Of a stretch of 64,000 nt of DNA, positions 11,074 through 28,843 are shown piece after piece. How positions within the stretch are numbered: the stretch's first letter is position 1; every line of letters starts with the position of its first letter. The notes under the pieces are model-generated. The model was given only the letters and a program-made list of their open reading frames with translations, did no database searches and had not been told where the DNA came from. Origin of the DNA: Gemmatimonadota bacterium (lineage in GTDB: Bacteria > Gemmatimonadota > Gemmatimonadetes > Gemmatimonadales > GWC2-71-9); assembly GCA_003220935.1 (NCBI GenBank), contig QHTT01000071.1, positions 1-64,000 on the forward strand. Reading direction: 5' to 3'. Both the position numbers and the translations under genes were made by a program.

Positions 11074-12309
11074 ATGACCTCCACCGACCTGGCCGCGGCT
11101 TTCGCGCATGCGTTCGGCGCCCCCCCCTCCTCCGCCGGCCCCGTTCACGTGGTTCGCGCGCCCGGGCGCGTGAACTTGATCGGCGAGCACATCGACTACT
11201 GTGGCCTGCCCGTCTTTCCCATGGCTCTCCGGCAGAGCGTCCGCATCGCGTTTCAGCCGCGCTCGGAGCGAGAGACCCGCCTCGTCAACCGCGATTCGCG
11301 CTTCGCGCCCAGCGCCTTCGTGATGAGCGAGAGCATCCCGCCAGCTCCGGCGGGGGACTGGGGCAACTACGCCCGGGCGGCGGCCCGGGCCCTGGCCGAA
11401 CGCTTCCCGGACCTGCGGGGCGTCGACGCACTGGTGGACAGCGATCTCCCGATCGCCGCGGGGCTCAGCTCCTCGTCCGCGCTCGTCGTGGCCATGGCCC
11501 TCGCGCTCATGCACGCGAACGGGGTGACGGTGCCGTCGCTCGAGCTGATGGAACTCCTGGGCCGCGGCGAGCGCTACGTCGGCACCGCCGGCGGCGGCAT
11601 GGACCAGGCGATTATCCTCGGTGCGCGGGCCGGGTGCGCGTCACGGATCGACTTCCACCCGCTCCGGCTCACGCCCACCGCCGTGCCCGCCGACTGGCAG
11701 TTCCTCGTGGCGTGGAGCCTGGTGCCCGCCGAGAAGTCCGGGGCCGCCCGGCAGGCGTACAACGAGCGGACGCACGAGTGCGACGAGGCCCGGCGCCTCG
11801 TGGCCATGCGGCTCGGCCAGCGAGACGACATCACCTACCCCGCCCTGCTCGCGGCGGCCTCAGTCGAGCAGCTGCTCGAGCTGGCGGGTGCGAGGGCGAC
11901 CCTCTCCGGCGTGCTCTCGCGGCGGTTCCGCCACGTGGTCACAGAGGGAACACGCGTGCGCCAGGCGGAGGCCGCGATGGCCGCCCAAGACCTCGCGGCG
12001 TTCGGGCAACTGCTCGACGCGTCGCACCAGAGTCTGCGGGACGACTACGAGGTGAGCCACCCCGAGCTGGACCGGCTGGTGGAGCTGGCCCGGGAGGCGG
12101 GCGCGGCGGGCGCAAGACTCACGGGCGCCGGGTTCGGTGGCTCGATCGTGGGGCTGTGTCGCGCCGAGCGCGCGCCGGAGGTCAGGGACGCGCTGCGGGA
12201 CCGCTTCTACGCCCCACGCGGCGCGGCAGGCGACGTCGAGCGGTATTTGTTCAGGGCCGAGCCGTCGGCAGGTGCGGAGGTTCTGACCCCGGGCGCAAGC
12301 CCGGGGTGA
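11074..12309 (+). CDS. galK: Galactokinase
   Basis: This is a 411-residue GHMP-fold kinase that phosphorylates galactose at C1 with ATP (Leloir pathway). Motif 1 is PGRVNLIGEHIDY at residues about 30 to 42, motif 2 is GLSSSSALVVAMA near 130 (phosphate-binding loop), GTAGGGMDQA follows near 170, and motif 3 is LTGAGFGGS near 350. The final residues (TPGASPG) are encoded by a family A palindrome, so the native end has probably been extended or replaced. The last 103 bases overlap the convergent sigma-factor frame. The B element immediately upstream supplies its ribosome site. It fits with the GH109, GH123 and epimerase genes nearby. Confidence 0.93.
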   Translation: MTSTDLAAAFAHAFGAPPSSAGPVHVVRAPGRVNLIGEHIDYCGLPVFPMALRQSVRIAFQPRSERETRLVNRDSRFAPSAFVMSESIPPAPAGDWGNYARAAARALAERFPDLRGVDALVDSDLPIAAGLSSSSALVVAMALALMHANGVTVPSLELMELLGRGERYVGTAGGGMDQAIILGARAGCASRIDFHPLRLTPTAVPADWQFLVAWSLVPAEKSGAARQAYNERTHECDEARRLVAMRLGQRDDITYPALLAAASVEQLLELAGARATLSGVLSRRFRHVVTEGTRVRQAEAAMAAQDLAAFGQLLDASHQSLRDDYEVSHPELDRLVELAREAGAAGARLTGAGFGGSIVGLCRAERAPEVRDALRDRFYAPRGAAGDVERYLFRAEPSAGAEVLTPGASPG

Positions 12310-12908
12310 GTGAGGGCCCCCGCCGGGCGGATCTGGTCGCGCAGGAACTTCAGGCCGCGAGCGAGTTGCGTCTCCACGGTCTTCTCGCAGATGCCGAGCC
12401 GGTCGGCGATTTGGGCGTAGCTCAGGCCGTCGATCAGCCGCAGCCTGCACACTACGGCTCGTTTAGAGGGAAGCTCGGCGAGGGCTCGTTCTACGGCCGC
12501 GACCAACTCCGCCGCCTCCAGGTCGGACTCGATCTCAGCCGCTGCTGCCACCGGACCGACCCGCCCCCTCCACCGGCGCGCCACGGCGGCACGCTCCAGT
12601 CGGTCGCGGGCGGCGTTGCGGACGGCGAGGTAGAGGTAGTTGCGCACTGCGCCGGCGGGGACCCAGTGCTCCCGGCCGCGCCAGATCCGGAAAAACACCT
12701 CCTGCGCGACCTCTTCTGCATCCTCCTTCGAGCGTACGTAGCGGAAGGCGAACGCGTACAGCCGCTGCCAGTACGTGCGATACAGCGCCTCGAACGCGTC
12801 CATGTCCCCGGCGCGGATGCGATCCGCCCACGCGCGTTCGTCGACGTCGGTACGGACGTCGTCCCAGGAGGTCTCGGGCTCGTTGGCGAAGCTGGTGTTG
12901 AGCGGCAT
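12207..12908 (-). CDS. ECF-type RNA polymerase sigma factor
   Basis: From the ATG at 12908 the protein has 233 residues. Region 2 contains YRTYWQRLYAFAFRYV and DAEEVAQEVFFRIWR. Region 4 contains LPSKRAVVCRLRLIDGLSY and a helix-turn-helix, YAQIADRLGICEKTVETQL. The tail after KFLRDQIRPAG is about 40 residues long, runs antisense through the end of galK and includes repeat-encoded residues, unusual for this family. TTG and GTG codons upstream (to 12986) would add residues overlapping the DUF5107 gene. It is the last gene of the FecR-SusC-SusD run and is the probable partner of that FecR, although sigma genes usually precede fecR. Confidence 0.88.
   Translation of the reverse strand: MPLNTSFANEPETSWDDVRTDVDERAWADRIRAGDMDAFEALYRTYWQRLYAFAFRYVRSKEDAEEVAQEVFFRIWRGREHWVPAGAVRNYLYLAVRNAARDRLERAAVARRWRGRVGPVAAAAEIESDLEAAELVAAVERALAELPSKRAVVCRLRLIDGLSYAQIADRLGICEKTVETQLARGLKFLRDQIRPAGALTHPGLAPGVRTSAPADGSALNKYRSTSPAAPRGA
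12283..12310. repeat. Family A palindrome at the galK / sigma convergent ends
   Basis: ACCCCGGGC and GCCCGGGGT flank a GCAA loop, preceded by CTG. The element contains the last codons of galK and part of the antisense tail of the sigma factor. It could also act as a bidirectional transcription stop between the two convergent genes. Confidence 0.7.
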
Positions 12909-12960
12909 CGACGGCGACCCGGGCGTCAGCTTGCCAGAATCCCACCACGACGGCGAGTAA

Positions 12961-14700
12961 TCATTCAAACTCCCGATACGCACCAAACACGGCTAACTGA
13001 TCTTCTCCAAGCTCAGGAGGAATCGGCAGACAGGGTTCATGCAGTTTTTCGCATAACTGATTCCACAATGCCGTGCGGGCATACCTTTGATGTACCTTCT
13101 GAAACGAAACGGACAACAGGAGTTTTTTGGCCTCCTGAGATTCACCTTTATCGATCAAGAGCTGCACGCGTCGTTCTATTATCCACTCATCGTGAAGGGC
13201 GTCTACCCGGTTCAACCACTGCTCACGTTCGGCTAGAGTTCGTGTTCCTGAGCTGCGGAGCACGTCGTCGCGCTCGACAATAATCTGGGGATGCAATTGC
13301 AACCATTGCTCCTGAATAGATCCTAACGCCTGTGCGGCCCCTTCGATATCACCGTCCAATTTGAGCAGCCGGGCCAACAAAGCCTTGGCGATCCCCAGGC
13401 TGCTCGTCGAGAGCACTTGGATCGCTGCTTGCTTCTTGCCTATTCCGGCGAGCCAAGTGCCATAATAGAATGCCCATCGTTCTGCCTTATCACCATCGGT
13501 ATTCTCGATGGCCCATTCAAAAGCTGCATTCATATTTTCCATCGCGGAAGGAGCCCAAAGACACTGCTGAATTTCAGGGGGTTCCGGTATGGTTCCTTTG
13601 GCTTTATGAGCACTCAAAAGATCTTTCCAAACCTTCACTTCTTCCTCTCTTGCCCAATCGAACAGCGGAACTTCGTCGATAGGTCTGAGTTCTACGTTGG
13701 GAAGCTGCAGCGAATAGATATCCAATGCTTTGTTTGCAGGGATCCAAAACTCCACGTGCGATCGGGCTTCCTGGGGTTGTAATTCCAACTTTATCGACTG
13801 ATCACGCATGGGTCCGCCCTGGATTTCCACGTACGGGGCGTCTCGTGCGCTACTCAGCGTCGCCCACACGCGGTCCTTGCCGACACCGTAGCTCCATAAT
13901 TTCATTCCCGGCGCGATCGCCTCATCAGCGATGTGATAGAGCCCTGTCCCCAATGACGCGGTGAAGGCCCCAAAGGCATTCGCGTCCTTTGTCTTCCAGA
14001 AGTAGCCCGTCATCTCCGTGATATCCGATTCCCGTCTCGGCCCCGATTGCTGCCAATCGATGGTCGCAAGCTTCGAACCATGTCGCAGCACTTCACCTCT
14101 GGGAAAATGGAATTCGGTATCGGGAGCGGATGGCAACGCGGCATTCGACCAGGACATCCAGGGATAGGCAGCGGTTCCGGGATTATGAAACACGGCGCGC
14201 TGCGTCAGGAACTCATCGCCCTCCCCCAGCGAGTATTCCACTGTCCACTGCATGCCAAACCGCAGTTCCCGTTCGCCACAGCTGACGTACACCCGCTTGT
14301 CTGTCTGATCGGTCCGGGAGAGTACCTGTTCGTTCTGCGTAGGGGAGTGCGAAATGGGAAAGCTGACGGCAATCCCGCCGGCCACAAAAGCGAATCGGGG
14401 GAGAATCCGCACCGGCCTGATGACAGCCGATGTGTAGAGAACCTCCTTGCCGGATCCCTTATGAATGAGGGATGTGACTTTGCCCCCGAGGTCGGGGCAA
14501 ATCACGGCTCTGACGTGCTCGTTCTCCAACACGATGAACCGGTAGTTTTTGAGTACCGGTCGGTGGGAGGTCTCTACATAGCTGATGTAGGGATAGACAC
14601 CATTCGGATCGAACGCTGTCGGAACCGGACCTGCGGGCGTCAGTTCGTGGGTGAGGACGTAATCCTGAACCTCGCTACAGACCACTCCGCTATCGCGCAA
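12961..14700 (-). CDS. DUF5107 domain-containing protein with C-terminal TPR-like helices
   Basis: This is a protein of up to 579 residues. The N-terminal half looks like an aldose-epimerase-type beta sandwich (ENEHVRAVICPDLGGKVTSL, MSWSNAALP, GYFWKTKDANAFGAF). The C-terminal half has helical repeats. DUF5107 proteins occur in polysaccharide-utilisation loci and are presumed to bind or process carbohydrate. The TTG at 14700 overlaps the preceding gene; a GTG at 14685 is an alternative. No signal peptide is seen, so it may be cytoplasmic. Base composition is near 50% G+C with A/T-ending codons, clearly below its neighbours, which suggests recent acquisition. Confidence 0.82.
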   Translation of the reverse strand: MRDSGVVCSEVQDYVLTHELTPAGPVPTAFDPNGVYPYISYVETSHRPVLKNYRFIVLENEHVRAVICPDLGGKVTSLIHKGSGKEVLYTSAVIRPVRILPRFAFVAGGIAVSFPISHSPTQNEQVLSRTDQTDKRVYVSCGERELRFGMQWTVEYSLGEGDEFLTQRAVFHNPGTAAYPWMSWSNAALPSAPDTEFHFPRGEVLRHGSKLATIDWQQSGPRRESDITEMTGYFWKTKDANAFGAFTASLGTGLYHIADEAIAPGMKLWSYGVGKDRVWATLSSARDAPYVEIQGGPMRDQSIKLELQPQEARSHVEFWIPANKALDIYSLQLPNVELRPIDEVPLFDWAREEEVKVWKDLLSAHKAKGTIPEPPEIQQCLWAPSAMENMNAAFEWAIENTDGDKAERWAFYYGTWLAGIGKKQAAIQVLSTSSLGIAKALLARLLKLDGDIEGAAQALGSIQEQWLQLHPQIIVERDDVLRSSGTRTLAEREQWLNRVDALHDEWIIERRVQLLIDKGESQEAKKLLLSVSFQKVHQRYARTALWNQLCEKLHEPCLPIPPELGEDQLAVFGAYREFE

Positions 14701-16528
14701 GGCGATCGCTTAACGCCTCCAGCATCCGCATCCCCTTGTGCACGGCTTCCGTGATTCTCGCCTGATCGTAATTGCGCTTACTGTAATCGCGATCTCCCAC
14801 GAATGTGGCCAAGTGGTTGTCCAGTTCCCGGAGCTGCCGTCTGATCGTGCCATTGGTCGATTGGGATGCCAGCGCGCGCAAGATCCGAATCTTTTCATAA
14901 TCGACGATTCCCTCGCGTAGCTTCTCAAATCGGACACTGCTGCTCGCGCCTGGATAAACGAGAAACTCATCGCCTGCGGGCCACAACGCATGGCGCGCGT
15001 CCCGCACCGGATCGGCCGGCCAGGCATCGTAGGCCCAGCGCAGGAATCCATCATACCCGTACGCTGCCGAGTACCAACCGATATACCGGCCTTCGATCGG
15101 CGGCGAAAAGACAAACGTGTTGGGCTTCTGGGGCGTGCAGCACACGTAGTACGTGGTCGTGGACCCTCGTGCGGAACGCGCCCTGAGCTCCTGCTGGCTC
15201 GGCTCGCTGGTGATGATCGGAGAGTAATCGTTGAGGAGCGAGTCCAGCTCCGTATGCCAGTTTCCAGCGTAGGTGATCTTCCATTTTGGAGAATGCGCCC
15301 TGATCACCCGGATCGCGGCGAGGGTGAGCGGCATTTCATTTTCGTTGATGCCAAGATAGGTCCGATCGAACCAGCCGCGCTGTTCCAGGTGGCCTTTGAG
15401 ATCGTCGAGAAACGCCCGCCACGCTGCGGCGAATTGCGCCGAGTCGGGTGACCACTGTTCGGAGACGTAGTTTCCGGATCGCTCGTCGAGGTAGCGGAAG
15501 CGGTTCCCCCACGGCAGCGGCGTATAGATCGTGATCGCCTGCTGCACGCCGACGGCGGTCGCCAGCTCCACGTACTGATCGAAGATGTTGTAGTCGAATT
15601 TCCAAGTCCCGTCAGCCCGCTTGGTCCATTCGATCATTGCCCCTTCGATCATGTAGGAATTGTCCGACCACGGGGAATGGACGGCGTAGGTGGTGATGTA
15701 TTTCCCACCCGCATCCGCGTACAACTTGAGATGCCGCCGCAGGAGTGCTTTGTGCTCTTCCGACCAGGGCTCGACGTGGTAGTACCAGGCCACCACCCAG
15801 GGATTCTGCCATAAGTCCAATCTGAACTTCCAATCACCAGGTGGAGGCAAGGTTTGGTCTTGGACCGTGATCGCCACCCGCAGTGTCGCACGACCCTTCT
15901 CAGAACTGATGTCGACCGTTCCCCGGTACACGCCGGATGTCGTGCCCGCGGGAATGTCCAACGACAGCCAGATCGGCCTCACGCTGCTTGCGGGCAGGTC
16001 GAACCGCTGGAACGGCTCCAGCCGGTCCGGCATGAGATAGGGCGGGTTCGAATCGGTCGCCCCGCAGCTCACCTCGTTGGCGCCGTACGGGTAGTTCGAT
16101 ACGACATACCGCACGAGATACATGTGCACGTTGGCGCCGGGCAGGACGCCGCCGTTCGCGTTGACGAGATCGCTGACGGCCACGCGTATCTGGTTTACGG
16201 TATCCGGTGACCAGACGACCAGCTCGGTGTTCAGCCGTTCGCCTTTCCAGCCGGTGGCTTCCCATGTTTGGGATTGCTGCTGCAGGTCCGGGACCTCACT
16301 TCTGAAGTATGCCTGGTCGGTGGAAGCGAACGAGACGTTCAGCCCCTTGGGCTGGAGCGACCAGCGCCGCGGATCGCTCGGGGAGTCGAACGTGTATTCC
16401 GGTTGAAAATGGAACGGCGGAACGCGGAGTTTGGCAGGATCAAGCCGTGCGCGTTGGACTCCGTCCTGGCCGTGAACGACGGCGACAATCAGACACGAGA
16501 GACAACAGGCTACCAGAATCCTGCGCAT
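14690..16528 (-). CDS. GH123/DUF4091-type secreted glycoside hydrolase
   Basis: This is a 612-residue protein with a signal peptide (MRRILVACCLSCLIVAVVHGQ). An N-terminal beta-sandwich is followed by a TIM-barrel region and the DUF4091 C-terminal block (GFLRWAYDAWPADP, LVYPG, LREGIVDYEKIRIL). GH123 enzymes are beta-N-acetylgalactosaminidases that normally use an Asp-Glu pair; the corresponding strand here reads YLGINENEMP, with Asn before Glu. The ATG overlaps the SusD stop as TAATG, so the two are coupled. The likely role is periplasmic or surface trimming of glycans imported by SusCD. Activity on GalNAc is inference and the altered pair adds doubt. Confidence 0.8.
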   Translation of the reverse strand: MRRILVACCLSCLIVAVVHGQDGVQRARLDPAKLRVPPFHFQPEYTFDSPSDPRRWSLQPKGLNVSFASTDQAYFRSEVPDLQQQSQTWEATGWKGERLNTELVVWSPDTVNQIRVAVSDLVNANGGVLPGANVHMYLVRYVVSNYPYGANEVSCGATDSNPPYLMPDRLEPFQRFDLPASSVRPIWLSLDIPAGTTSGVYRGTVDISSEKGRATLRVAITVQDQTLPPPGDWKFRLDLWQNPWVVAWYYHVEPWSEEHKALLRRHLKLYADAGGKYITTYAVHSPWSDNSYMIEGAMIEWTKRADGTWKFDYNIFDQYVELATAVGVQQAITIYTPLPWGNRFRYLDERSGNYVSEQWSPDSAQFAAAWRAFLDDLKGHLEQRGWFDRTYLGINENEMPLTLAAIRVIRAHSPKWKITYAGNWHTELDSLLNDYSPIITSEPSQQELRARSARGSTTTYYVCCTPQKPNTFVFSPPIEGRYIGWYSAAYGYDGFLRWAYDAWPADPVRDARHALWPAGDEFLVYPGASSSVRFEKLREGIVDYEKIRILRALASQSTNGTIRRQLRELDNHLATFVGDRDYSKRNYDQARITEAVHKGMRMLEALSDRLAR

Positions 16529-18222
16529 TACCAGCCCGGATTTTGGGTGAGCGTGCCCTTTGACAATTGAATCTGCTGCAACGGAAGCGGGTCGAGATAG
16601 TGCTTCGGCGCGATGAATTGGCGTGAGGCCGCCGGATCAGAGATGACGAAGCCACCGGCGTCGACCTGGATATCCGCCCCGATCACCAGGCCGGGATCCC
16701 GCTGCTGGTATTCCGTGCCGACGAACTTCACGCCGCGCAACGCCTGCGGCAGCTCGGTTTCGGCCGTCTTCCAGCGCCGCAAGTCGTCACGCCGGAATCC
16801 TTCGAACGCCAATTCCACGGTCCGCTCTCGCCGAATCTCCGTGAGCATGTCGAGCCCGTTGGCGCTCACCAGACCATTAGTGAGGGCAGGCATGCCAACC
16901 CGGTCGCGCAACAGTTTGATCGTCCGGTTCAGGTCGCCATCTGAGATTGTACCGTCCCGCTCAAACAGCGCCTCGGCGAGGATCAACAGCACTTCCCCGT
17001 AACGAAACTCCTTGAAATCGTACTGCCCGACAAAGTGGGCCGCCTCGTCGGTTTCGTCCAGGAATTTGCGCAGCATGTAGCCGGTGCGAGTGGCGTTAGT
17101 GCCCGAAAAGCCTGGAATGACCGGGTTGAACCCATTCTCCTGGTGAACAGTGCTGCCGGGGACGACGAATGTCATCGCCATTCTCGGATCCCGGTTTTGA
17201 AATTCAGTTGTCTCCAGCGAATCATATCCCTGAAACTGCGGCGAGATCGTAATGGGCAGGCCGTCCTTGCACAGGTACATGTCCGCCAGCTTCTTCGTCG
17301 GAATCATGTAATTGAACCACAGTTCTCTGGTCCAGTTGTGGGTGGCGCGACCCGCGTAATACCGTCTGGCAAGGATTACTTCCTTGCTGTCATCGCCCTG
17401 CAGGATGAACAGGAACTTGTAGGCGCTGTCTGTACCGTGGTCTCGATACAGATCGTACTCATTCGACGCAATCAGTTGCTCCGCGGCATTGATCGATGCC
17501 GTAATCATCGCCGTGGGTGAGCCCTCGTTGTGATACCTGAGCCAGGTCCCCTGGTACAGCGCGGCCCGGGCCTTCAGCGCGAGCGCCGCGCCTTGCGTCA
17601 CCCGCCCCATCTCCTCGGGGGCCAGCTGACTCTGCTTGACGAGTTTCGGCACCGCGGCGTCGAGGTCGGCGATGATGAAATCGATGATCTCTTGTTGCGT
17701 GGCTCGCGGTGAGTACACCTCCGGCGAGTTGACGTCGAGCACCGTGGTGATGAGCGGCACACCGCCGTACTTCTTTACCAGGTTCCAGTAGTTATACGCC
17801 CGGAAGAACAGCGCCTCGCCTACCCAGCGATCGATTTGCGATCCCAGTCCCGATTGCGTGGCTTTCGCGAGCAAATAGTTGGTCGCCCGGATTCCGGCAT
17901 ATGCATTGTTCCAGACGTCGGAATTCGCCTGTGGCAGATACGACCCGTTGCTCATCGATGACATCTCCGAGCTCCCGCTGCCGGTGGCGATATCTGAATT
18001 GAGGTCGACGTAGGTACCGCGTGCACCCCCCCCTTGGTCAGGGCCGCGCAGCGCGAAGTAGAAATCATTGGCGGCCAGCTTGAACTGGTCCGGACTCTTC
18101 CAGAACGAAGCGTCCGAGACTTGATCCTTCGGACCGAGGTCGAGGCCTTTGCAGCCCAGCGCCAGCATGAGGAGGGCGCCGGTGTACGTGACAGTGAGCC
18201 GGTTCATGAGTGCGCGCCCCAT
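16528..18222 (-). CDS. RagB/SusD-family glycan-binding outer membrane lipoprotein
   Basis: This is a 564-residue protein. A lipobox (LLMLALGC) follows a short leader and should anchor it by lipidation to the outer membrane. SusD features include KDQVSDASFWKSPDQF near the start, the TPR region with WNLVKKYGGVPLIT, and the C-terminal block RERTVELAFEGFRRDDLRRW. The ATG at 18222 overlaps the SusC stop as TGATG; an in-frame ATG at 18207 also gives a good leader. It pairs with the SusC-like porin to capture oligosaccharides. G+C is lower than in the flanking genes. Confidence 0.92.
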   Translation of the reverse strand: MGRALMNRLTVTYTGALLMLALGCKGLDLGPKDQVSDASFWKSPDQFKLAANDFYFALRGPDQGGGARGTYVDLNSDIATGSGSSEMSSMSNGSYLPQANSDVWNNAYAGIRATNYLLAKATQSGLGSQIDRWVGEALFFRAYNYWNLVKKYGGVPLITTVLDVNSPEVYSPRATQQEIIDFIIADLDAAVPKLVKQSQLAPEEMGRVTQGAALALKARAALYQGTWLRYHNEGSPTAMITASINAAEQLIASNEYDLYRDHGTDSAYKFLFILQGDDSKEVILARRYYAGRATHNWTRELWFNYMIPTKKLADMYLCKDGLPITISPQFQGYDSLETTEFQNRDPRMAMTFVVPGSTVHQENGFNPVIPGFSGTNATRTGYMLRKFLDETDEAAHFVGQYDFKEFRYGEVLLILAEALFERDGTISDGDLNRTIKLLRDRVGMPALTNGLVSANGLDMLTEIRRERTVELAFEGFRRDDLRRWKTAETELPQALRGVKFVGTEYQQRDPGLVIGADIQVDAGGFVISDPAASRQFIAPKHYLDPLPLQQIQLSKGTLTQNPGW

Positions 18223-21200
18223 CAGAAGGTGATGTCCATACCGAAGGAGTACAGCCGCTGGAACGGATAGTTGAAGCCGTTCGCGATCGACTCGGGATCC
18301 CAGCCGCCCTTCACGCTGTGCTTCTCCCAGAGATCGAACCCGCTGAAATACACTCGGGCGTGCGTCATCCTGGCCTTCGCAATCAGACGCTCCGGGAGCG
18401 TGAACCCGACCTGCAGGTTCTTCAGCCGCAGATAGGCCGCGTTGACCCTCTGCAGAGACGACGGCTGATAGTTCCAGAACCGGATGTCGCCGTGCGACAG
18501 CCGCGGATACGGCGCGTTGGGACGATCCTCATTCCAGGTCTGGCCGTAGTAGAAGAGCGGCGGCTGCCTCCACCAATCACTCCAGGGCATGCGGTAGTCC
18601 CCTTCTCGGAACAGGGTCCGCTTGCCGACCCCCTGGAAGAAGGTGCCGAGATCGAACCGTTTCCACGCCAGCGTGAGATTCAGCCCGTACGTGTACCGCG
18701 GCGCGAGATTCCCCAGATTGACGACATCACCATCCTGGCCCGGGTTGTCCCCGTACAGGCTGATCTTCCCGTCGCCATTCAAGTCTTTGTACCGCGCGTC
18801 GCCGATCCCGATGTCGCTGGGCACGCCGCCGAGCAGCTTGTACGCGTCGAGCTCGGCCTGATTGCGGATCAGCCCGTCGAACACGTAGCCGAAGTACGTG
18901 TTCACCGGATAGCCCTGACGGACATAGTTGTAGCCCAGGACATAGGTGTCCTGGCCGCCATAGTTCACGACCTTGTTCTGGGCATCGCTGAGCGATATCC
19001 GGGCCGAATACGATAGTCCCCGGAGCGCCCCTCTCCATCCAACCGATGTTTCGAAGCCCCAGGCCTTGAGGCTTCCCGCGTTTGCGAACGGCGGTGTTGC
19101 CCCCAGCAATGCCGGAGCGTTGATGGGCACGAGCATGTCTTTGTTGCGTTTGACGAAGTAGTCGAACGTCACGTTGAGACGGGATGACAACAGCGTCGCG
19201 TCCCACCCCACGTTCGTCGTGGCGATCGTCTCCCACGTCCGGTCTTTCGCCACCATGCCCGACAGGTAGGCCGATTGATCCTGGCCACCAGCTCCGAACG
19301 GATACGGCCCACGGCCGCCGATGGTGATCAGCTGCAGGTAGTCGTAGAGGTTGATGCCTTCCTGATTCCCGGTCTCGCCGTACGAGACGCGCAGCTTCAG
19401 GTCATCGAACGTGCTGAGATGACGGCGCGCAAATGGCTCTTCGGAGATCCGCCAGGCGAGCGACACGCCCGGGAACAATCCCCAGCGCTTGTCGGGGCGG
19501 AAGCGGGAGCTGCCATCGTAGCGCAGCGTGGCATCGAGCAGGTACTTGTTGTTGAACCCGTAACTCAAGCGAGAGAAGAGCGATCGGATCGCCCACTGCG
19601 AGCCGCCGCCGCCGGTCCACGTGTTGCCGGTCCCGCCGAGATTGAGTCCCCACACGTCCTGGTTCGGGAAGTTGTATCTGCCTGCCTGGAACCAGTCCAC
19701 GTCGTCGTCTTCGTGCGATACGCCGCCCATCAACTCGACCGCGTGCCGGTCCGCAAACGTCCGGCTGAACTGCGCATACCCGACGTAGTTCCGATGCACC
19801 GTGGTGCCATTGTACCGGCCCACCCAGTTTTGATCGGGATTGGTCGAATAGTAGGCGATGTTGCTGTCATTCCACTGGTAGTACGGGAAGGACTTGCCGA
19901 TATCGGTGTTGTCCTCCGTGCGGTAATCGATGCCGGACTGGAGATTCAACTTCAGTCCATCCAGCGGCTCGACGATCAATTTGAAATTGGTATTGACGTT
20001 CCGCGTGACAAAGGTGGCGGTCGCAGCTTCCTTCGCTTGAGCCACCGCGTTGCCCCAGCCCCCTTGCGCAAAAAAGTGCTGACCGCTCTCCGTGTAGATG
20101 GGATGATTGGGCATCCCAAAGATCCCTTCCACGATCACCCAGGGGCAGCTACACCAGGAACCGTGGGTAAAGCCGCCGATGTCCGACCGGTCCTGATTCT
20201 CTACGCCGAGGCGTGTTTCGAGCCGGACGCGCCGCGAGAAATCGTAATCGTAATTCAGCCTGAGCTGATAGCGCCTGTTGTTGTCGTTCGCGTAGCGAAT
20301 CACGCCGTTCTGATCCGAGTAGGCGGCCGAGACGTAGTAGGTGGAATTGTCGCCTCCACCCGAGACCGACACCGTGTGCTTCTGCTCGAAGCCGTCTTCG
20401 AACAGGGCTTTGCGCCAATCGGTGTTCGTAAAGAAGAGCATCCACCCCGAGCTCGCGTAGATCGGATGCGGGATGGGCGTCGGATCGCCGATACGTACGC
20501 GGTTGAGCAGATCCGGGGTGTACATCGGCGCCGCGCCGGCGTGGATGTTCGCCTCATTATCCATGACCGCCATCTGATAGTTATTCGGCGTATCCATCAT
20601 TCCGGTTAACTTCGTGACGGCGGTGTTGTTGCTGTACGTGAAGACGGGCGCGGTGCGCGTCCCGCGCCTGGTCGTAACCAGCAGCGCTCCGTCGGCCGCC
20701 CGCGCGCCATAGATCGACGCAGCCGCATCCTTCAACGCCGTGATCGATTCGATGTCCGCGGGGTTCACCAGATCGAGATTGCCGGGGACCCCATCGATCA
20801 GCACCAGCGGCGTGTTCCCGCCATTGGCCGACGAAACACCCCGCAGATTCAGATCGAAGTCTTCCACCCCCGGCTGCCCCCCAGACCGCTGCACGATCAA
20901 TCCGGGAAGCGCACCCTGAAGCGCCGACAACGTGTTGGTGATCGGGCGAGACTCCAGTGCCTGGGAGCTCACAGTACCAACCGCTCCGGTGAGGTCCTCC
21001 CTTCTCTTTTCACCGTAGCCCACGGCCACCACCGCCTCCAGCTCGATGGCCTGCGCTTTGAGCTGAAAGTTCACGACCGCCTCCTGCCCTTCCGCCACCA
21101 CCACGCTGGTGTCGGCGGGAGTGTAGCCCAGCATCCGGGCCCGCACCCGGTGCGTCCCGACCGGCACACTGCCGATGACATAGCGGCCGGCGGTATCGGT

Positions 21201-21728
21201 CTCGGCGGTAAGCCGCGTCCCAGTGACGCTCACGATGGCGCGCGGCAGGGGAGCACCGGTCTCCGTCGCGGTCACCCGTCCGGCGATGGAGCCCAGCTGC
21301 ACCGCCGGCCCGTCGGGCCGCTTGACCAGCGTGGCGCGCCCGTCCGGCGTGAACACGACGTCCACGCCCGCGTCGAGCAGCACGTCCGTCAGCGCCGCGG
21401 CCACGGTAATCCGATCCGCGCGCAGATTCACCGTCGCCGCGATCGGCAGGTCGTCGTCGGCATAGACGAGGTTGAGTCGCGCCTGGCGGGAGATCTCCGC
21501 CAGCGCCTCCTTGAGCGTGACGCCGTCGAGCGCGAGCGAGAGCGGCTGTCGCAACACCCACGAGCGCTTCAGGTCAACCGGTACCGGCGCTCGGCGCTCC
21601 GCCATTGCCAACAGGAATCGCGGGGCTCGGCTGTCGCTCGGATCACCCCCGTATTGCGGGGCCGCGGTGCGAGGGAAGAGCGCCAGGGCCAATGCAAGCA
21701 TGACAAGGAACGATGGAAGGCGGTTCAT
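18222..21728 (-). CDS. SusC/RagA-family TonB-linked outer membrane protein with STN domain
   Basis: The ATG at 21728 is preceded by GGGGAG and gives 1168 residues beginning with a signal peptide (MNRLPSFLVMLALALAL). Domains in order: STN (LKEALAEISRQARLNLVYAD, about 50 to 120), carboxypeptidase-regulatory-like barrel (GSIAGRVTATETGAPLP), the SusC box VVAVGYGEKRREDLTGAV, a plug (GVSSANGGNTPLVLIDGVPG) and a 22-strand-type barrel ending in aromatic FGMDITF. The STN domain marks it as a transducer signalling to the adjacent FecR. The region coding STN is much richer in G+C than the barrel, suggesting a domain-level exchange. Confidence 0.93.
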   Translation of the reverse strand: MNRLPSFLVMLALALALFPRTAAPQYGGDPSDSRAPRFLLAMAERRAPVPVDLKRSWVLRQPLSLALDGVTLKEALAEISRQARLNLVYADDDLPIAATVNLRADRITVAAALTDVLLDAGVDVVFTPDGRATLVKRPDGPAVQLGSIAGRVTATETGAPLPRAIVSVTGTRLTAETDTAGRYVIGSVPVGTHRVRARMLGYTPADTSVVVAEGQEAVVNFQLKAQAIELEAVVAVGYGEKRREDLTGAVGTVSSQALESRPITNTLSALQGALPGLIVQRSGGQPGVEDFDLNLRGVSSANGGNTPLVLIDGVPGNLDLVNPADIESITALKDAAASIYGARAADGALLVTTRRGTRTAPVFTYSNNTAVTKLTGMMDTPNNYQMAVMDNEANIHAGAAPMYTPDLLNRVRIGDPTPIPHPIYASSGWMLFFTNTDWRKALFEDGFEQKHTVSVSGGGDNSTYYVSAAYSDQNGVIRYANDNNRRYQLRLNYDYDFSRRVRLETRLGVENQDRSDIGGFTHGSWCSCPWVIVEGIFGMPNHPIYTESGQHFFAQGGWGNAVAQAKEAATATFVTRNVNTNFKLIVEPLDGLKLNLQSGIDYRTEDNTDIGKSFPYYQWNDSNIAYYSTNPDQNWVGRYNGTTVHRNYVGYAQFSRTFADRHAVELMGGVSHEDDDVDWFQAGRYNFPNQDVWGLNLGGTGNTWTGGGGSQWAIRSLFSRLSYGFNNKYLLDATLRYDGSSRFRPDKRWGLFPGVSLAWRISEEPFARRHLSTFDDLKLRVSYGETGNQEGINLYDYLQLITIGGRGPYPFGAGGQDQSAYLSGMVAKDRTWETIATTNVGWDATLLSSRLNVTFDYFVKRNKDMLVPINAPALLGATPPFANAGSLKAWGFETSVGWRGALRGLSYSARISLSDAQNKVVNYGGQDTYVLGYNYVRQGYPVNTYFGYVFDGLIRNQAELDAYKLLGGVPSDIGIGDARYKDLNGDGKISLYGDNPGQDGDVVNLGNLAPRYTYGLNLTLAWKRFDLGTFFQGVGKRTLFREGDYRMPWSDWWRQPPLFYYGQTWNEDRPNAPYPRLSHGDIRFWNYQPSSLQRVNAAYLRLKNLQVGFTLPERLIAKARMTHARVYFSGFDLWEKHSVKGGWDPESIANGFNYPFQRLYSFGMDITF

Positions 21729-21762
21729 AAGCCAACTCCCCGGAAGCAGACGGGCATGACGG

Positions 21763-22803
21763 TTACCTACCGTTCCGAAGCAAGAACGCGGACCCGCCGG
21801 CGCGTTCGACACGCAGACCGAGGGTCAATGCAATCCGCTGCAGGACCAGGTCGATCGGCTCGTTCTGGAGCGTCGCCGTCAGCCGGCGCCCGGCAAGCGC
21901 GCTTTCGGCCAGACGGATCTCGACGTTGTACCACCGCTCGAGCGTGAGCACCACGTCGCCCAGCGGCGTGCCGTCGAAAGTGAGCACCCCTCTGGTCCAC
22001 GCGAGGTACCGCCCGACATCGACGCGACGCCGGAGCGTGACGACGCCGCTCGGATCGAGCCGTCCGAGGTCCCGGACCCCGAGCACCAGCGCGGAGGGGG
22101 GGGCGTCCGGTCGAGGACCGCGCGCGCGCGCAGCCGCCGTCGTATCGGCCCGCCACAGCGCCACGCGCCCTTCGGCCACGACCACCTCGGTCGCGGTTTG
22201 ATCATACGCCCTGACCACGAACGCCGTCCCCAGATCCTCGGTCACGCTGCGGGTGGTGTGGACGCGGAGCGGACGCTGTGAGTCGGGTGCGACCTGGAAA
22301 TACGCTTCGCCGTCGAGATACAGGTCGCGGTGCGCTGTGCCGTAGTCGGCCGGGTAGCGCACGCGACTTTTGGGCGCGATAGTGACCTGCGTGCCGTCCT
22401 GCAGGCGGATGACCATCCGCTGCGCCGCGGCGGTGGCGTACTCAGTCCACTGCGGCGTCCGCCGCAGCAAGCCCCCCAAGCCCCGCACACCCCGCCCCCC
22501 GATCAGTGCGATAACAACCGCCGCGGCGGCAAGCGCCGCCGCGAGCAGCCGGCGTGACACGCGCGGCGGCGGAGGGTGGGCGACCTTGAGCGCCTTCACC
22601 GCCTTCGCCCAGGCCGCATCGGTGCCGCTGTGCGGTGCTTTGTCGGCTATGACGCGCTTGATGAGCCGCAGATCGTCCAGGAGCAGGGCGTGCGCGGGGT
22701 CCTCCGCGAGCCACTCCTGCACGGCCTTCGCGTCGCTAGCCGTCGCCTCGCCGGCCAAGTAGCGGTCCAACAGGAGGTAGAGGCGCTCGTCCTCGAGGTG
22801 CAC
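21763..22803 (-). CDS. FecR-family anti-sigma factor / sigma regulator
   Basis: The GTG at 22803, preceded by ATAAGG, gives 346 residues starting MHLEDERLYLLLDRYLAGE, the usual anti-sigma start; an upstream TTG at 22839 is less likely. One membrane helix lies at about residues 88 to 105 (LLAAALAAAAVVIALIGG). The periplasmic FecR domain has MVIRLQDGTQVTIAPKSRVRYP and YLDGEAYFQV, and a C-terminal STN-binding region has LTFDGTPLGDVVLTLERWYNV. It should sense the SusC STN domain and control the ECF sigma factor at 12207-12908, 8.9 kb downstream on the same strand. Confidence 0.92.
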   Translation of the reverse strand: MHLEDERLYLLLDRYLAGEATASDAKAVQEWLAEDPAHALLLDDLRLIKRVIADKAPHSGTDAAWAKAVKALKVAHPPPPRVSRRLLAAALAAAAVVIALIGGRGVRGLGGLLRRTPQWTEYATAAAQRMVIRLQDGTQVTIAPKSRVRYPADYGTAHRDLYLDGEAYFQVAPDSQRPLRVHTTRSVTEDLGTAFVVRAYDQTATEVVVAEGRVALWRADTTAAARARGPRPDAPPSALVLGVRDLGRLDPSGVVTLRRRVDVGRYLAWTRGVLTFDGTPLGDVVLTLERWYNVEIRLAESALAGRRLTATLQNEPIDLVLQRIALTLGLRVERAGGSAFLLRNGR

Positions 22804-22861
22804 ACCCTTATAACGGGGCAGGCCGGTCCTGACCCCCAAACCGACCTTTCCTACAGTTCCC

Positions 22862-23044: not shown

Positions 23045-24811
23045 TTATTCGAACCCCACCCGCGGCAGCGCGCGGAACAGCCCCCACGCCGCCGCGCCTG
23101 CGGCTACCAGGCACACGATCGCGGGCAGCGGCTTCCCGTACAACACGTATCCCGTGCCGAACAGCGCCGCGTAGATGACGACGCAGCCCAGGAACCAGCA
23201 CAGGAAGGCGGCGGTCACGCTTTCCCCGGGAGTCGCCGGCCGGGTGGTCACTGCGCGGCTCCAGCCTGGGCCCAGGGGCCGAATGCGGTCATAAAACGTC
23301 TGGAGGGTGGCGCGGTCGGTGGGCGGCGTCGCGAACGTCACGGCCAGCCACCCGACGGTGGTGATGGCGATCCCGATCACGAGCCGGAGCGTTGGGGCGA
23401 GCGGCGCAAGCCCGAGCGCCCCGTGCACGAACTGGAAGTACACGGCTACCACGAAGGAGATCACCATGCCGGCGATCTCGCTCCACGCGTTGACCCGCCA
23501 CCAGAACCAGCGCAGCAGGAAGATCAGCCCGGTCCCGGCGCCGATCTGGAGCAGGATCTGGAACGCCTGATAAGAGTTCTGGAGCCAGAGCGACAGCGCC
23601 GACGCGAGCGCGATCAACAACACCGTGACGGCGCGCCCCACCCGCACGTAGTGACGTTCGTCCTTGTGGGGCGCCACGAACCGGCGGTAGCAGTCCTCGA
23701 CCGCGTAGGACGCGCCCCAGTTCAAGTGGGTGCTGATGGTGGACATGTACGCCGCCGCGAGCGAGGCGATCATCAGGCCGAGCAGCCCGTGCGGGAGATA
23801 CACGAGCATCGCGGAGTAGGCCAGGTCGTTGCGCACGATCGCCCGGTCGATGTGGGGGAAACGCGAGGCGATGGAGGCGAGGTCGGGATAGATGATGAGC
23901 GACGCGAGCGCCACGATGATCCACGGCCAGGGCCGCACGGCATAGTGGAGTACGTTGAACAGCAGGGTCGTGCGCATGGCGTCGCGCTCCGTGGGCGCGG
24001 CGAGCATGCGCTGCGCCACGTAGCCCCCGCCTCCGGGCTCGGCGCCGGGATACCAGGTGCTCCACCATTGCACCGCGAGCGGCACGACCAGGACGGCGGC
24101 CGCCGTGCTCCAGTCCGAGAAGTCGGGCAAGAGCGACAGGTGCCCGGCCACCGCGGGGTGGGCGAACAGCCCCGTCAGGCCGCCGACTTGGGGGAGCCCG
24201 AGCGCCACGACGGCGGCCATCACGGACCCGACCATCGCGATCAGGAACTGGACGAAATCAGTCAAGACGACTCCCGACAGCCCGGAGCTGGCCGCGTACA
24301 GCACGGTGACGGCGCCGCCGACGAGGACCGCCGTGGAGCGATCCCAGCCGAGCAGCACGCCGGCGATCTTGGTCGCGGAGAGATTGACCGAGGCCATGAT
24401 CATCACGTTGAAGAACACGCCGAGGTAGATCGCCCGGAAACCTCGGAGAAAGGCCGCCGGCCGGCCGGAGTAGCGCACCTCGTAGAACGCGATGTCGGTG
24501 AGGGCCGCGGAGCGCCGCCACAGCTTGGCGTAGAAGAACACGGTGCACAGCCCCGTGACCGCGAAGGCCCACCACACCCAGTTCTGGCTCACGCCGCCGG
24601 TGCGCACCAGATCGGTGACGAGGTTCGGCGTGTCGGTCGAGAACGTCGTGGCCACGAGCGACACCCCCAGGAGCCACCACGACAGCCGGCGTCCGGAGAG
24701 GAAGAACTCGTGGCGCCCCTGACCGGCGCGGCGCACCACCGCCAGGCCAATGGCCACGCAGACGATGCCGTACAGCGCCAGCACGATCCAATCGAGGGTG
24801 TCGAGTCGCAT
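23045..24811 (-). CDS. Sodium:solute symporter (SSS family)
   Basis: This is a 588-residue integral membrane protein with about 13 to 14 hydrophobic segments, beginning WIVLALYGIVCVAIGLAVV. The SSS signature region FFLSGRRLSWWLLGVSLVAT is near residue 36, and TFSTDTPNLVTDLV follows as the first sodium-site helix. It should import a sugar or related solute with sodium. An AGGGGG ribosome site is just upstream of its ATG. Its place in the glycan block suggests import of the monosaccharide released there, but sequence alone does not give the solute. Confidence 0.9.
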   Translation of the reverse strand: MRLDTLDWIVLALYGIVCVAIGLAVVRRAGQGRHEFFLSGRRLSWWLLGVSLVATTFSTDTPNLVTDLVRTGGVSQNWVWWAFAVTGLCTVFFYAKLWRRSAALTDIAFYEVRYSGRPAAFLRGFRAIYLGVFFNVMIMASVNLSATKIAGVLLGWDRSTAVLVGGAVTVLYAASSGLSGVVLTDFVQFLIAMVGSVMAAVVALGLPQVGGLTGLFAHPAVAGHLSLLPDFSDWSTAAAVLVVPLAVQWWSTWYPGAEPGGGGYVAQRMLAAPTERDAMRTTLLFNVLHYAVRPWPWIIVALASLIIYPDLASIASRFPHIDRAIVRNDLAYSAMLVYLPHGLLGLMIASLAAAYMSTISTHLNWGASYAVEDCYRRFVAPHKDERHYVRVGRAVTVLLIALASALSLWLQNSYQAFQILLQIGAGTGLIFLLRWFWWRVNAWSEIAGMVISFVVAVYFQFVHGALGLAPLAPTLRLVIGIAITTVGWLAVTFATPPTDRATLQTFYDRIRPLGPGWSRAVTTRPATPGESVTAAFLCWFLGCVVIYAALFGTGYVLYGKPLPAIVCLVAAGAAAWGLFRALPRVGFE

Positions 24812-24904: not shown

Positions 24905-24928
24905 CGCCTCTATGGTTTAAGAATAGAG

Positions 24929-25509: not shown

Positions 25510-25532
25510 CAGAGCGAGCGGCCCTGTCATCC
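25510..25532 (+). repeat. Partial family B element overlapping a stop codon
   Basis: CAGAGCGAGCGGCCCTGTCATCC differs at two of 23 bases from 25337-25359. Its TCA (25527-25529) is the stop codon of the minus-strand nucleotidyltransferase gene, so the repeat has become that gene's end. Confidence 0.7.
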
Positions 25533-26453
25533 CCAGAGCCGTTCCGGGTACTCGCCCGCAGCCACCAGCTGCCGCAATGCCTCCTCGACGCGCGGGCGGT
25601 CATCCGGGTAGGTCATGCCGAGCCAGCGGCCGCGTGTGTCCAGCAGCCGCACCCGCGCCTCGCCCCGACGCACCGCGTCCCGGATCCCCTGTGAGATCAG
25701 GAACTCGCTCCGCCCGGCATCGGCCTGGCGCAGGAACTCCGCGAACCCGCGCCGCAGCAGGTCGAACACCACAGGCGTGAAGGCCCACAGGTTCATCGAA
25801 ACCAGGGCGTCGGCCGCGAGCTGCACCGGCCGGCCGCGAGGATCGATTCCTTCATACGCGCCGCTTCCCAGGCGCCGGATCTCCACGATCTCCTCCACGG
25901 TTTCGAGCCACCCGTCGCCATCGGCACAGACGACAGCGCGGTTCACGCCCCCGGCAGCGCTGAGCGTATTGCGGAGCGGGTACGCGATGTTGGCGAACGT
26001 CCCGGACGCTTCGCCCGCGTGCCCAGCCACGAGGAACTCCGCCGCCCGCGTGAAGGCGTCGCGGCCATAGAAGTCGTCCGCATTCACCACGGCGAACGGG
26101 CCCCTGACCTGGGAGGCCGCCGCCAGCACCGCGTGGCTCGTGCCCCACGGTTTGCTGCGCCCCGACGGGACGGCCGAGCCGGCGGGGACGTCGTCGAGCC
26201 GCTGTCGGGCATAGACGAGAGCCGGGCGGCCTCCTCCACCCCCTCCCCAGCGCGCCCCGATCGTGGCGCGCACCGCCGCCTCCAGCTCGTCTCGGATCAC
26301 GAGGACAACGGTCCCGAAGCCCGCGCGCACCGCGTCGTAGATGCTGTAATCCAGCAGGGTGGCGCCGGCGGGCCCGAGCGGCTCGATCTGCTTCGACCCG
26401 CCATAGCGGCTGCCGACTCCGGCCGCGAGGATTACCAGTGCGGGCGCGCCGAT
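25527..26453 (-). CDS. Sugar nucleotidyltransferase-like protein with apparent AUC start
   Basis: From an ATC at 26453 the protein has 308 residues. It opens with APALVILAAGVGSRYGGSKQ, the NTP-transferase signature (GxGxR and Lys), followed by VVNADDFYG (metal-binding Asp) and EGIDPRGRP. No ATG, GTG or TTG precedes the signature: the frame runs back to the TAA stop of the epimerase two codons before the ATC. A GAGGT ribosome site lies five bases before the ATC. The first ordinary start, a GTG at 26330, would delete the active-site loop. The product class (NDP-sugar synthesis) is well supported; the exact sugar is not. Confidence 0.8.
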   Translation of the reverse strand: MGAPALVILAAGVGSRYGGSKQIEPLGPAGATLLDYSIYDAVRAGFGTVVLVIRDELEAAVRATIGARWGGGGGGRPALVYARQRLDDVPAGSAVPSGRSKPWGTSHAVLAAASQVRGPFAVVNADDFYGRDAFTRAAEFLVAGHAGEASGTFANIAYPLRNTLSAAGGVNRAVVCADGDGWLETVEEIVEIRRLGSGAYEGIDPRGRPVQLAADALVSMNLWAFTPVVFDLLRRGFAEFLRQADAGRSEFLISQGIRDAVRRGEARVRLLDTRGRWLGMTYPDDRPRVEEALRQLVAAGEYPERLWG

Positions 26454-26456: not shown

Positions 26457-27431
26457 TTACCTCGCGGGCTCGAGCTTGGCTCTCGCGGCCTCCACCACCC
26501 GTCGCACCCCGTCCTCGAGCGACACCGACGGGCGCCAGTCCCACGTCCGCTGCGCAACGGCGGCATCGAGACAGATCCGCACGATGTCGCCGCGCCGGTC
26601 GGCAGCGTGGGTCGGGCCATTCGGGTAGCCCGTAGCAGCGGCTACTTCTCGAAACAGCTCGAGATCCGAGACCTCCCGCGCCCATGCGACGTTGGCGACG
26701 ACCCCCGACGGTCCGGCTGCCGCGCGCATGGTCGCCTCCACCACGTCGCCCACGTACACGTAGTCGCGTGTCTTGGTGCCGTCGCCGAAGATTGTCACGG
26801 GCTCGCCGGCGAGCATCTGTCGCGTGAAGATCGCCACGACTCCGGCCTCCCCATCGGCACGCTGTCGTGGACCGTACACGTTGCCGTATCGCAGCACCGC
26901 GGACTCGATCAGCCCGCGTGCCGTGTAGGCGCTGAGATAGTGCTCGACCGCGAGCTTGCTCGCGCCATATTCGGAAATCGGGCGCGTCGCGTCGGCCTCG
27001 GACACGGGGAGGCGCTTCGGGTCGCCGTACACGGCGGCCGACGACGCGTAGACGATGCGCCGTGCATCGACGGCTACGGCCGCGCGCACCACGTTGAGGC
27101 CGCCCAGCACGTTCACCCGGGCGTCGAAATCCGGCTCCCGGATCGACCGGCGCACGTCCGTCTGCGCCGCCGCGTGGAACACGACCTCCGGCCTGAAGTC
27201 TGCGAAGACTTCACGCAGCGACGCCAGATCGCAGATATCGAGTCGCTGGAGCCGGGCATCCGGCGGGACGTTGCTGGCCGATCCCGTGGACAGATCGTCC
27301 ACCACGCACACGCCCTGGCCGTCCGCCACCAGGCGGTCGACGATGTGGGAGCCGATGAATCCCGCTCCACCCGTCACCAGCACCCGCGGCCCTGTGCCGG
27401 TCAAGCCGTGACGATCCCCAACCGCGGCCAT
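26457..27431 (-). CDS. NAD-dependent epimerase/dehydratase (UDP-glucose 4-epimerase-like)
   Basis: This is an extended short-chain dehydrogenase of about 324 residues. It has RVLVTGGAGFIGSHIVDRL at its N-terminus (NAD-binding GGxGFIG), DDLSTG, the catalytic YGASK (Tyr and Lys) near residue 148, and YVYVGDVVEA near 240. It probably interconverts NDP-sugars such as UDP-glucose and UDP-galactose, which would fit with galactokinase. The ATG at 27431 overlaps the preceding gene by 31 bases; a TTG at 27404 with GGGGA upstream gives a tighter overlap. It is followed without a normal start codon by the nucleotidyltransferase. Confidence 0.88.
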   Translation of the reverse strand: MAAVGDRHGLTGTGPRVLVTGGAGFIGSHIVDRLVADGQGVCVVDDLSTGSASNVPPDARLQRLDICDLASLREVFADFRPEVVFHAAAQTDVRRSIREPDFDARVNVLGGLNVVRAAVAVDARRIVYASSAAVYGDPKRLPVSEADATRPISEYGASKLAVEHYLSAYTARGLIESAVLRYGNVYGPRQRADGEAGVVAIFTRQMLAGEPVTIFGDGTKTRDYVYVGDVVEATMRAAAGPSGVVANVAWAREVSDLELFREVAAATGYPNGPTHAADRRGDIVRICLDAAVAQRTWDWRPSVSLEDGVRRVVEAARAKLEPAR

Positions 27432-28786
27432 GTCTTCCAGCGGCCGCGCGTGAAGTCCGGGAACTCGACGGGCTGGCTGCCGTTCGCCACCGACCATTCG
27501 GAGAGCGGCGTGACGACGCTCAGGGCAACCGCATCGTAGACGTTCATATCTGTGGGCAGCCCTTCGCGCAGGCACTTGATGAGCCGGTAGTCCTCCAGGT
27601 AATCCATGCCGCCATGCCCGGCGCCCCGGCTTTTCTCCTCCATTTGCTTCCACAGCGGGTGATCGAATTCGGCCACGTACGTCTCAGCCGGGTCCCACTC
27701 GTCCGGCTTGCTCCGCCCCTCGAGGTAGACGCGGTCGGGGTAGCCCTGGAACAGCCCGCGGGTGCCCTGGACCACGTGGACTCTGCTGTAGGGGCGCGGG
27801 AGGTTCGTGTCGTGGCTCACGCAGATCGTTCGCCCATTTGCCGTGCGGATCAAACTCATGTTCACGTCCCCCAGGACGTACTGCTCCTGCCGCTGGGGAG
27901 AGCCCTCCAGGAAGTGCTCGCGGGCGTACAGCTGGAGCCCGCGAGATGGGCTGCTCAGCGAAACCAAGGACGCAAACCGGTCGCCCCGGTTGATGTCCAT
28001 GCAGTTGGCCACGGGACCAAGGCCGTGCGTCGGGTAGAGGTTGCCGTTGCGCTGCATCGAATGGGCCCGGCGCCACAGCCCTTCGCCTTCGGGACTGAAT
28101 TTCACGGACCGCAGGTCGTGCAGGTAGCCGCCCTCGGCGTGCAGGATCTCTCCGAACAGGCCCTGGCGCACCATGTTGAACACCATCATCTCCATGCGCC
28201 CGTAGGTGCAGTTCTCCATCATGACGCAGTGCTTGCCATACTTCTCCGCGTGCTCGACCAGGGCCCAGCAGTCGTCGATCGTGTAGGTCGCCGGCACCTC
28301 GGTAACGGCGTGCTTGCCGTTGCGCATCGCCGCGAGGCAGATTGGGACGTGCCACTCCCACGGGGTGGCGTTGAAGACCAGATCCAAGTCTTCGTCCTCG
28401 CACATGCGGACGAAGTCCGTGGGGCTGCGGGAATAGCCCGCGGGGCGTGGGAAGCCGGCCTGCTCGACCAGGTCCTGGATGTGGGTCACCTTCTCGGGCA
28501 CGATGTCGTCCACGGCCTTGATCACGCACCCCTCGATGTGGAGCAGGTTGCGCACGTGCGCGCTCCCCTGTCCGCCCACGCCGACGAAGCCGATCCGCAC
28601 CGTGTCCATCGGCGGGGCCGCGAAGAACCGCTCAGGTGCAAGTCCGGCCTGCGGCCGCGGCGCGGCCGACGCAGCGCGCATGGTCGGGGCGCAGGCCGCG
28701 GTCCCGCCCAGGGCGGCGAGGCCCAGCCCGCCGGCGATCAGCTTCAGCGCGTCCCGCCGGTCCAGGTCGTCACTACTCGCGGTCAT
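27401..28786 (-). CDS. GH109-type NAD-dependent glycosidase (Gfo/Idh/MocA fold), Tat-exported
   Basis: The ATG at 28786 has a near-perfect AAGGAGGT site five bases upstream and gives 461 residues. A Tat leader (DRRDALKLIAGGLGLAALGG) is followed by the Rossmann motif GFVGVGGQGSAH. GH109 hallmarks are HAVTEVPATYTIDDCW near residue 155 and MMENCTYGRMEMMVFNMV near 187. GH109 members cleave alpha-N-acetylgalactosaminides through a transient oxidation with bound NAD. The assignment rests on the TEVPA and MMENC blocks rather than the ordinary EKP motif. With the GH123-type gene it hints at a GalNAc-containing substrate. Confidence 0.85.
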   Translation of the reverse strand: MTASSDDLDRRDALKLIAGGLGLAALGGTAACAPTMRAASAAPRPQAGLAPERFFAAPPMDTVRIGFVGVGGQGSAHVRNLLHIEGCVIKAVDDIVPEKVTHIQDLVEQAGFPRPAGYSRSPTDFVRMCEDEDLDLVFNATPWEWHVPICLAAMRNGKHAVTEVPATYTIDDCWALVEHAEKYGKHCVMMENCTYGRMEMMVFNMVRQGLFGEILHAEGGYLHDLRSVKFSPEGEGLWRRAHSMQRNGNLYPTHGLGPVANCMDINRGDRFASLVSLSSPSRGLQLYAREHFLEGSPQRQEQYVLGDVNMSLIRTANGRTICVSHDTNLPRPYSRVHVVQGTRGLFQGYPDRVYLEGRSKPDEWDPAETYVAEFDHPLWKQMEEKSRGAGHGGMDYLEDYRLIKCLREGLPTDMNVYDAVALSVVTPLSEWSVANGSQPVEFPDFTRGRWKTWPRLGIVTA

Positions 28787-28796
28787 GTGAACCTCC

Positions 28797-28843
28797 TTCG
28801 TGCCTGCGCTCAGGATGACAAGGTCGCTCGCGCAGCGAAACAA
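28797..28843 (-). repeat. Family B element directly before the GH109 gene
   Basis: Read on the minus strand, CTTGTCATCCTGAGCGCAGG is followed by CACGAAGGAGG and then the GH109 start. The repeat tail has become the ribosome binding site, as at galK. Another GCGAGCG unit lies at its outer end. Confidence 0.75.

Follow-up and report, generated by a model that had tools for sequence, protein, structure and literature searches.

How does a SusCD locus come to carry its fecR gene at one end and its sigma factor gene at the other? This arrangement is found in the window, i.e. the 64,000-nucleotide stretch of a Gemmatimonadota contig (QHTT01000071.1) analysed here, where the order on the minus strand is fecR-susC-susD-GH123-DUF5107-sigma, with the sigma gene coming last, 8.9 kb downstream of fecR, and galK converging on it (Table 1). 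The gene order, common direction and family assignments proposed in the initial annotation were borne out: the sigma factor matches the TIGR02985 profile with 133.2 bits (cut-off 126.4), FecR matches PF04773 and PF16344 with 68.5 and 53 bits (both over the cut-offs), SusC matches TIGR04056 with 778.8 bits (cut-off 368), SusD, whose gene is paired with susC, matches PF07980 with 156.7 bits, and the enzyme encoded in the same orientation as susCD matches the GH123 catalytic domain, PF13320, with 342.6 bits. The gene overlaps described there are partly artefacts of ORF starts; relatives align to the sigma factor only from residue 24 of its 259-residue ORF, and the ATG that they have in common (position 12908) lies about 50 nt past the DUF5107 stop codon, which leaves a gap instead of an overlap. 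The sequence suggests ATG 21728 as the start of susC, while the most likely start of fecR is GTG 22803, the end coordinate of the locus as initially annotated. The PDB relatives of the window GH123 include beta-N-acetylgalactosaminidases and, judging from family names and PDB relatives, GH123 together with the GH109-like gene suggests GalNAc-containing glycans as the substrate.

Table 1. Features of the locus and its surroundings (positions in the window)
Feature	Position	Strand	Remarks
Galactokinase-family (GHMP) gene, galK	11074..12309	+	converges on sigma
ECF sigma factor gene (FecI-like)	12207..12908	-	TIGR02985; start ATG 12908; last gene
Sigma C-terminal tail, ~35 residues	12207..12309	-	antisense to galK 3' end
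DUF5107-sigma gap	12909..12960	-	CTTGCG...CT(A/T) element of relatives not recognizable here
DUF5107 + BDI_1685-like C-terminal domain protein	12961..14700	-	PF17128; PDB relative 5cd6
GH123, probable beta-N-acetylgalactosaminidase	14690..16528	-	GH123_cat PF13320
SusD lipoprotein	16528..18222	-	PF07980
SusC plug + barrel, Bacteroidota-type part of chimera	18222..20980	-	identity, tree
Ton-box-like LEAVVAVGYG at graft boundary	21009..21038	-	change point residue 278, about 20981
SusC signal peptide, STN, CNA/CarboxypepD; Gemmatimonadota-type signalling front	21039..21728	-	identity, trees; STN match below Pfam cut-off
fecR (anti-sigma/sigma regulator)	21763..22803	-	PF04773/PF16344; GTG start
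P1, conserved element directly 5' of fecR, candidate operon promoter	22804..22840	-	
SSF sodium:solute symporter	23045..24811	-	upstream neighbour in both layouts
Nucleotidyltransferase-like protein (NUC)	25527..26330	-	no Pfam match; G002 homologue has a weak NTP_transferase match
NAD-dependent sugar epimerase/dehydratase family protein (EPIM)	26457..27653	-	
GH109-like oxidoreductase/glycosidase	27401..28843	-	PF21252

The premise of the initial annotation, that sigma and fecR are usually adjacent, was confirmed. Thirty-six other, paralogous fecR loci of the same family were gathered with profile models, and a sigma gene is adjacent to fecR in each of the 33 that allow a judgement (the other three end at a contig edge), upstream and co-directional in 24 cases and divergent in nine, with a largest gap of 924 nt. 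Within the window clade it is adjacent in none of six loci, three of which (L105, L106 and L108) end inside susC and thus tell of non-adjacency only; one more locus ends at a contig edge. The sigma-last layout with the same neighbours is shared by the window, G168 (complete, on one contig), G111 (on two contigs) and G153, which comprises the GH123 end, DUF5107, a frameshifted sigma gene and galK; G157 retains only galK and the end of the sigma gene. In relatives of genus g2 the sigma gene comes first: G002 has the complete order sigma-NUC-SSF-fecR-susC-susD-GH123-DUF5107, with two genes between sigma and the downstream fecR, while G152 (EPIM-sigma-NUC-SSF, on a contig that stops before fecR) and G138 (EPIM-sigma) are partial. 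All the Gemmatimonadota data used appear to be metagenome-assembled genomes, and several contigs stop inside the cluster; since the sigma-last layout is common to other genera (G168 and, on split contigs, G111 and G153), it is not an accident of assembly. Orthologues of DUF5107 were found in eight of the 102 genomes of the family (E ≤ 1e-50). In G166, a g17 relative, galK, SSF, NUC and DUF5107 occur together (locus L043), and the stretch read there has no fecR, susCD, GH123 or sigma. A further GH109-EPIM-NUC-SSF-fecR-susC copy is present in G168, on a separate contig (C14, locus L105), which ends inside susC and reflects either duplication or strain mixture.

The ends of the sigma gene differ between the two layouts. 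The protein is of natural length in the sigma-first G002, G138 and G152, while in the window, G168 and G111 about 35 extra residues are read antisense through the 3' end of galK; because this tail is present only in sigma-last copies, the sigma-last layout is most likely derived, the sigma gene having moved to the end later. An element comprising CTTGCG at -60/-61 and CT(A/T)A or CTATT at -32/-33 precedes sigma in five of seven orthologues, from both layouts (G111, G153, G002, G152 and G138), is half lost in G168, and in the window is at the level of shuffled sequence. A scan of positions 11900-14000 with the sigma-70 consensus returned one weak promoter-like site on the minus strand, inside DUF5107, and no minus-strand terminator was found in this interval. 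Because the conserved upstream element has been lost, it is plausible that the window sigma depends on read-through from the operon, which would constitute a positive loop; a sigma-first operon would form a loop as well. We regard as a candidate promoter of the operon the 37-nt P1, which is kept before fecR in the window, both G168 copies, G111, G153 and G002, and which the sigma factor may use. The DNA 5' of P1 differs (the window has an inverted repeat, G111 a different palindromic insert, G002 about 590 nt, G153 a repeat and G168 nothing), and P1 is probably not coding, as in G002 its frame differs from that of fecR. It occurs once in its own genome (≤3 mismatches), so that no wider regulon can be read from it. 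Alternatively, the window may harbour an ordinary rearranged SusCD locus with sigma expressed from its own constitutive promoter, wherever the gene happens to lie; this reading, which would agree with the graft described below but not with the loop, has a real if lesser chance of being right, as the upstream element does travel with sigma in both layouts, yet it sits poorly with the erosion of that element in the window and G168, both of them sigma-last.

Several insertions were observed nearby. A 61-nt imperfect inverted repeat (22869-23023) lies between the SSF stop codon and P1 in the window, and different inserts occupy this place in G111 and G002. An ORF for a GIY-YIG endonuclease (24929-25234, minus strand) lies between 50-nt direct repeats that are 98% identical (24858-25435), and this element sits as an insertion between NUC and SSF, two genes that adjoin each other in G168; the repeats have a CTCAGGATGACA core, also found upstream of fecR in G153, and the own genome has one other weak GIY-YIG match.

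By identity and phylogeny, SusC is a chimera, in which STN and CNA are Gemmatimonadota-like and the plug and barrel are Bacteroidota-like, with the switch at about the Ton box. We compared it with 17 native SusCs and with six STN-bearing SusCs of a related group of Bacteroidota loci (hereafter the block): the identity to native and block sequences, respectively, is 35.7 and 17.9% for STN, 45.7 and 24.9% for CNA, 47.7 and 61.6% for the plug, and 27.6 and 58.1% for the barrel, while native and block SusCs are 17.8, 23.7, 44.8 and 26.4% identical to each other in the same four regions. From CNA to plug the preference switches from native to block, and the cumulative change point, residue 278, adjoins the motif LEAVVAVGYG, which was assigned as Ton-box-like by analogy to DEVVVTG of Bt1763 (in the accessible part of PMC7782687). 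The CUSUM itself peaks further in, at residue 392, and its size was matched in none of 2000 permutations, and a column bootstrap preferred the native sequences in 2000 of 2000 replicates for the front and in 0 of 2000 for the plug-barrel. In the plug-barrel tree the window clade and the block are joined with a support of 100, whereas in the front tree the window clade is nested in the native rows with a support of 93, and the native rows were one-sided in 0% of 200 bootstrap trees. For the 204 columns of the front, a clade shared by window and block was not rejected by the AU test (p 0.095, or 0.10 with STN-bearing rows only); conservation of the block STN across Bacteroidota is only 25%, and rapid STN divergence could mimic a replacement. 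A first clade test of the barrel was dropped, the question put to the tree being uninformative. The same switch is present in all four long window-clade SusCs compared, which is most simply read as a single graft that preceded the split of the layouts, and since the sigma-first G002 has the same graft, the graft is older than the sigma-last layout. No sharp mosaic breakpoint was found within SusC among the Gemmatimonadota relatives. A front/barrel mismatch was also observed between two native SusCs, L163 and L114 (barrel 70%, CNA 53%, STN 26% identical), and such exchange may be recurrent.

The genes that follow the barrel are foreign as well. Scanning GTDB genomes with a SusD alignment yielded 17 loci, including nine related Bacteroidota loci with SusDs 59-68% identical to that of the window, eight of which have the order SusC-SusD-GH123-DUF5107 and one of which (L158) has SusC-SusD-GH123, with DUF5107 not seen; a tenth Bacteroidota match, L162 (SusD 24%), is unrelated to the block. 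The window GH123 and DUF5107 are 53-60% and 58-66% identical to their block counterparts, and the other SusDs of its own genome are 27-38% identical to the window SusD. Two short soil contigs labelled Acidobacteria (L147) and Chloroflexi (L153), with SusDs 86-95% identical to the window, may be mis-binned. The different base composition of the cargo, pointed out in the initial annotation, was confirmed as a dip at third codon positions, GC3 being 0.61 in DUF5107, 0.76 in GH123 and 0.77 in SusD, against 0.85 in sigma and FecR and 0.93 in SSF. Composition alone is not decisive evidence of insertion, as the relatives share the dip and the low total GC of SusC barrels is partly driven by amino acids, and the comparison was therefore made in GC3 against 23 native SusCs. 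Barrel GC3 is 0.74-0.82 in five window-clade SusCs and 0.85-0.92 in most native ones, and the front-minus-barrel difference is +0.075 in the former (n=5) and -0.017 in the latter (n=23), although the step is small in the window SusC alone (+0.029) and reaches +0.091 in the native L173.

The regulators resemble Gemmatimonadota paralogues more than they do those of the block, FecR being 36.6% identical to native and 23.6% to block sequences, and sigma 35.7 and 25.1%; by identity both look native to Gemmatimonadota. In the trees, AU tests did not reject a common clade of window and block for either (0.29 for sigma, 0.49 for FecR), because these proteins are short and fast-evolving. Within the block, sigma and FecR are only 23 and 27% conserved, and, given that they are far more variable than the barrels (66%), regulators may have been exchanged there as well. 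Transfer of the whole unit from Bacteroidota, including sigma, FecR and STN, with the front genes diverging faster as they co-evolved for insulation from other sigma/FecR pairs, would fit this poor conservation (shared by the block STN), the non-significant AU tests and the canonical order, with adjacent sigma, of five of the seven FecR matches in Bacteroidota loci. We nevertheless consider it unlikely: fast divergence alone would not place the front, FecR and sigma 10-20 points nearer to Gemmatimonadota paralogues, nor nest the front in native rows, and the STN (PF07660) of L151 is a strong match of 55 bits, whereas that of the window is sub-threshold (22.2 bits, cut-off 28.4, E 1.3e-4) and scores like that of a paralogue in its own genome (both about 20 bits). 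The history put forward in the initial annotation, insertion of the cargo between an adjacent sigma and a fecR-transducer pair so that sigma was left at the far end, was right about foreign origin and draws on the adjacency seen in all judgeable paralogous loci, but is very improbable, for the junction falls within susC, close to the Ton box, G002 shares the graft and has sigma upstream, two genes from fecR, G152 sigma likewise precedes NUC-SSF, and the sigma-last copies, with their galK-derived tail, look derived. The initial annotation had named as contrary evidence relatives that share the order and are uniform in composition; the order was indeed shared, but uniform composition was not found.

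We therefore favour, as the probable explanation of the whole, a native signalling unit to which a Bacteroidota GH123 block was grafted, followed by relocation of sigma. The native sigma, FecR and STN-CNA head of SusC would have been fused in a single event, at about the Ton box, with a block comprising the SusC plug-barrel, SusD, GH123 and DUF5107, the transfer presumably running from Bacteroidota to Gemmatimonadota. Glycan bound at the foreign SusD and barrel would move the native STN head, which would signal via the native FecR, and the native sigma thus released would transcribe from P1. After the graft, sigma with its own upstream region would have left the front of the cluster for its 3' end, where it faces galK, losing its stop codon and gaining the antisense tail; in the window the upstream element has since gone, and sigma would probably rely on read-through from the operon that it activates. 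The cargo also seems to have been swapped again between g2 and g17. The window SusC, SusD and GH123 are 81, 82 and 92% identical to those of G002 (g2) and 74, 76 and 71% to those of G168 (g17), and GH123 of G111 is 86% identical to the window, whereas for FecR, SSF and sigma, and likewise for rpoB (93.1 vs 89.3%, in a comparison that excludes the G111 and G154 rows), g17 is the nearer genus. Two GH123 alleles, about 71% apart, occur in otherwise very similar contexts (in the window, L044, L146 and L153), and in L153 SusD is 95% but GH123 71% identical to the window.

More generally, and as a tentative proposal that falls a little short of an even chance, the Ton box may be a natural exchange point, at which a resident sensor head of Gemmatimonadota (sigma, FecR and STN-CNA) acquires foreign SusC barrels together with their lipoprotein and enzyme cargo, with sigma later able to reach the end of the operon and come to rely on read-through, so that a linear circuit becomes self-reinforcing. 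If so, new glycans could be brought under old control by one recombination. The locus itself suggests a route by which a regulated nutrient system may be gained with no need to bring in a matching regulator, and the paired sigma-first and sigma-last forms of the circuit in related bacteria make the effect of sigma position directly testable.

In the literature searched, with most subscription papers outside the search, we found neither a natural graft between SusC front and barrel nor, for Gemmatimonadota, a SusCD locus with sigma in last place described. The closest known systems share parts of the design. FecIRA-type signalling likewise comprises an ECF sigma factor, a FecR-type regulator and a TonB-dependent transducer (FecI, FecR and FecA), the N-terminal STN domain of the transducer having a sub-threshold match in the window SusC, but the window has a glycan SusCD instead of an iron carrier, its sigma is not adjacent to fecR, and sigma possibly lies inside its own target operon, while fecIR of E. 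coli is not autoregulated (according to the accessible part of PMC9249621). Bacteroidota SusCD loci under ECF sigma/anti-sigma control, whose SusCs have STN domains (as the accessible part of PMC7782687 describes), share the order SusC-SusD-GH123-DUF5107, but have sigma and fecR 5' of susC where both were found, whereas in the window sigma is last and the SusC front is Gemmatimonadota-like. Finally, in the engineered PupB/PupA transducers (Koster et al. 1994, as cited in the accessible part of PMC9249621) the signalling domain of one transducer was likewise placed on the barrel of another, and the PupBA chimera answered the ligand of PupA through the pathway of PupB. Those chimeras were made from two Pseudomonas receptors, whereas the window SusC is natural, joins two phyla and has a whole glycan cargo attached; it appears to be the natural, cross-phylum counterpart of the engineered proteins that showed heads and barrels to be separable.
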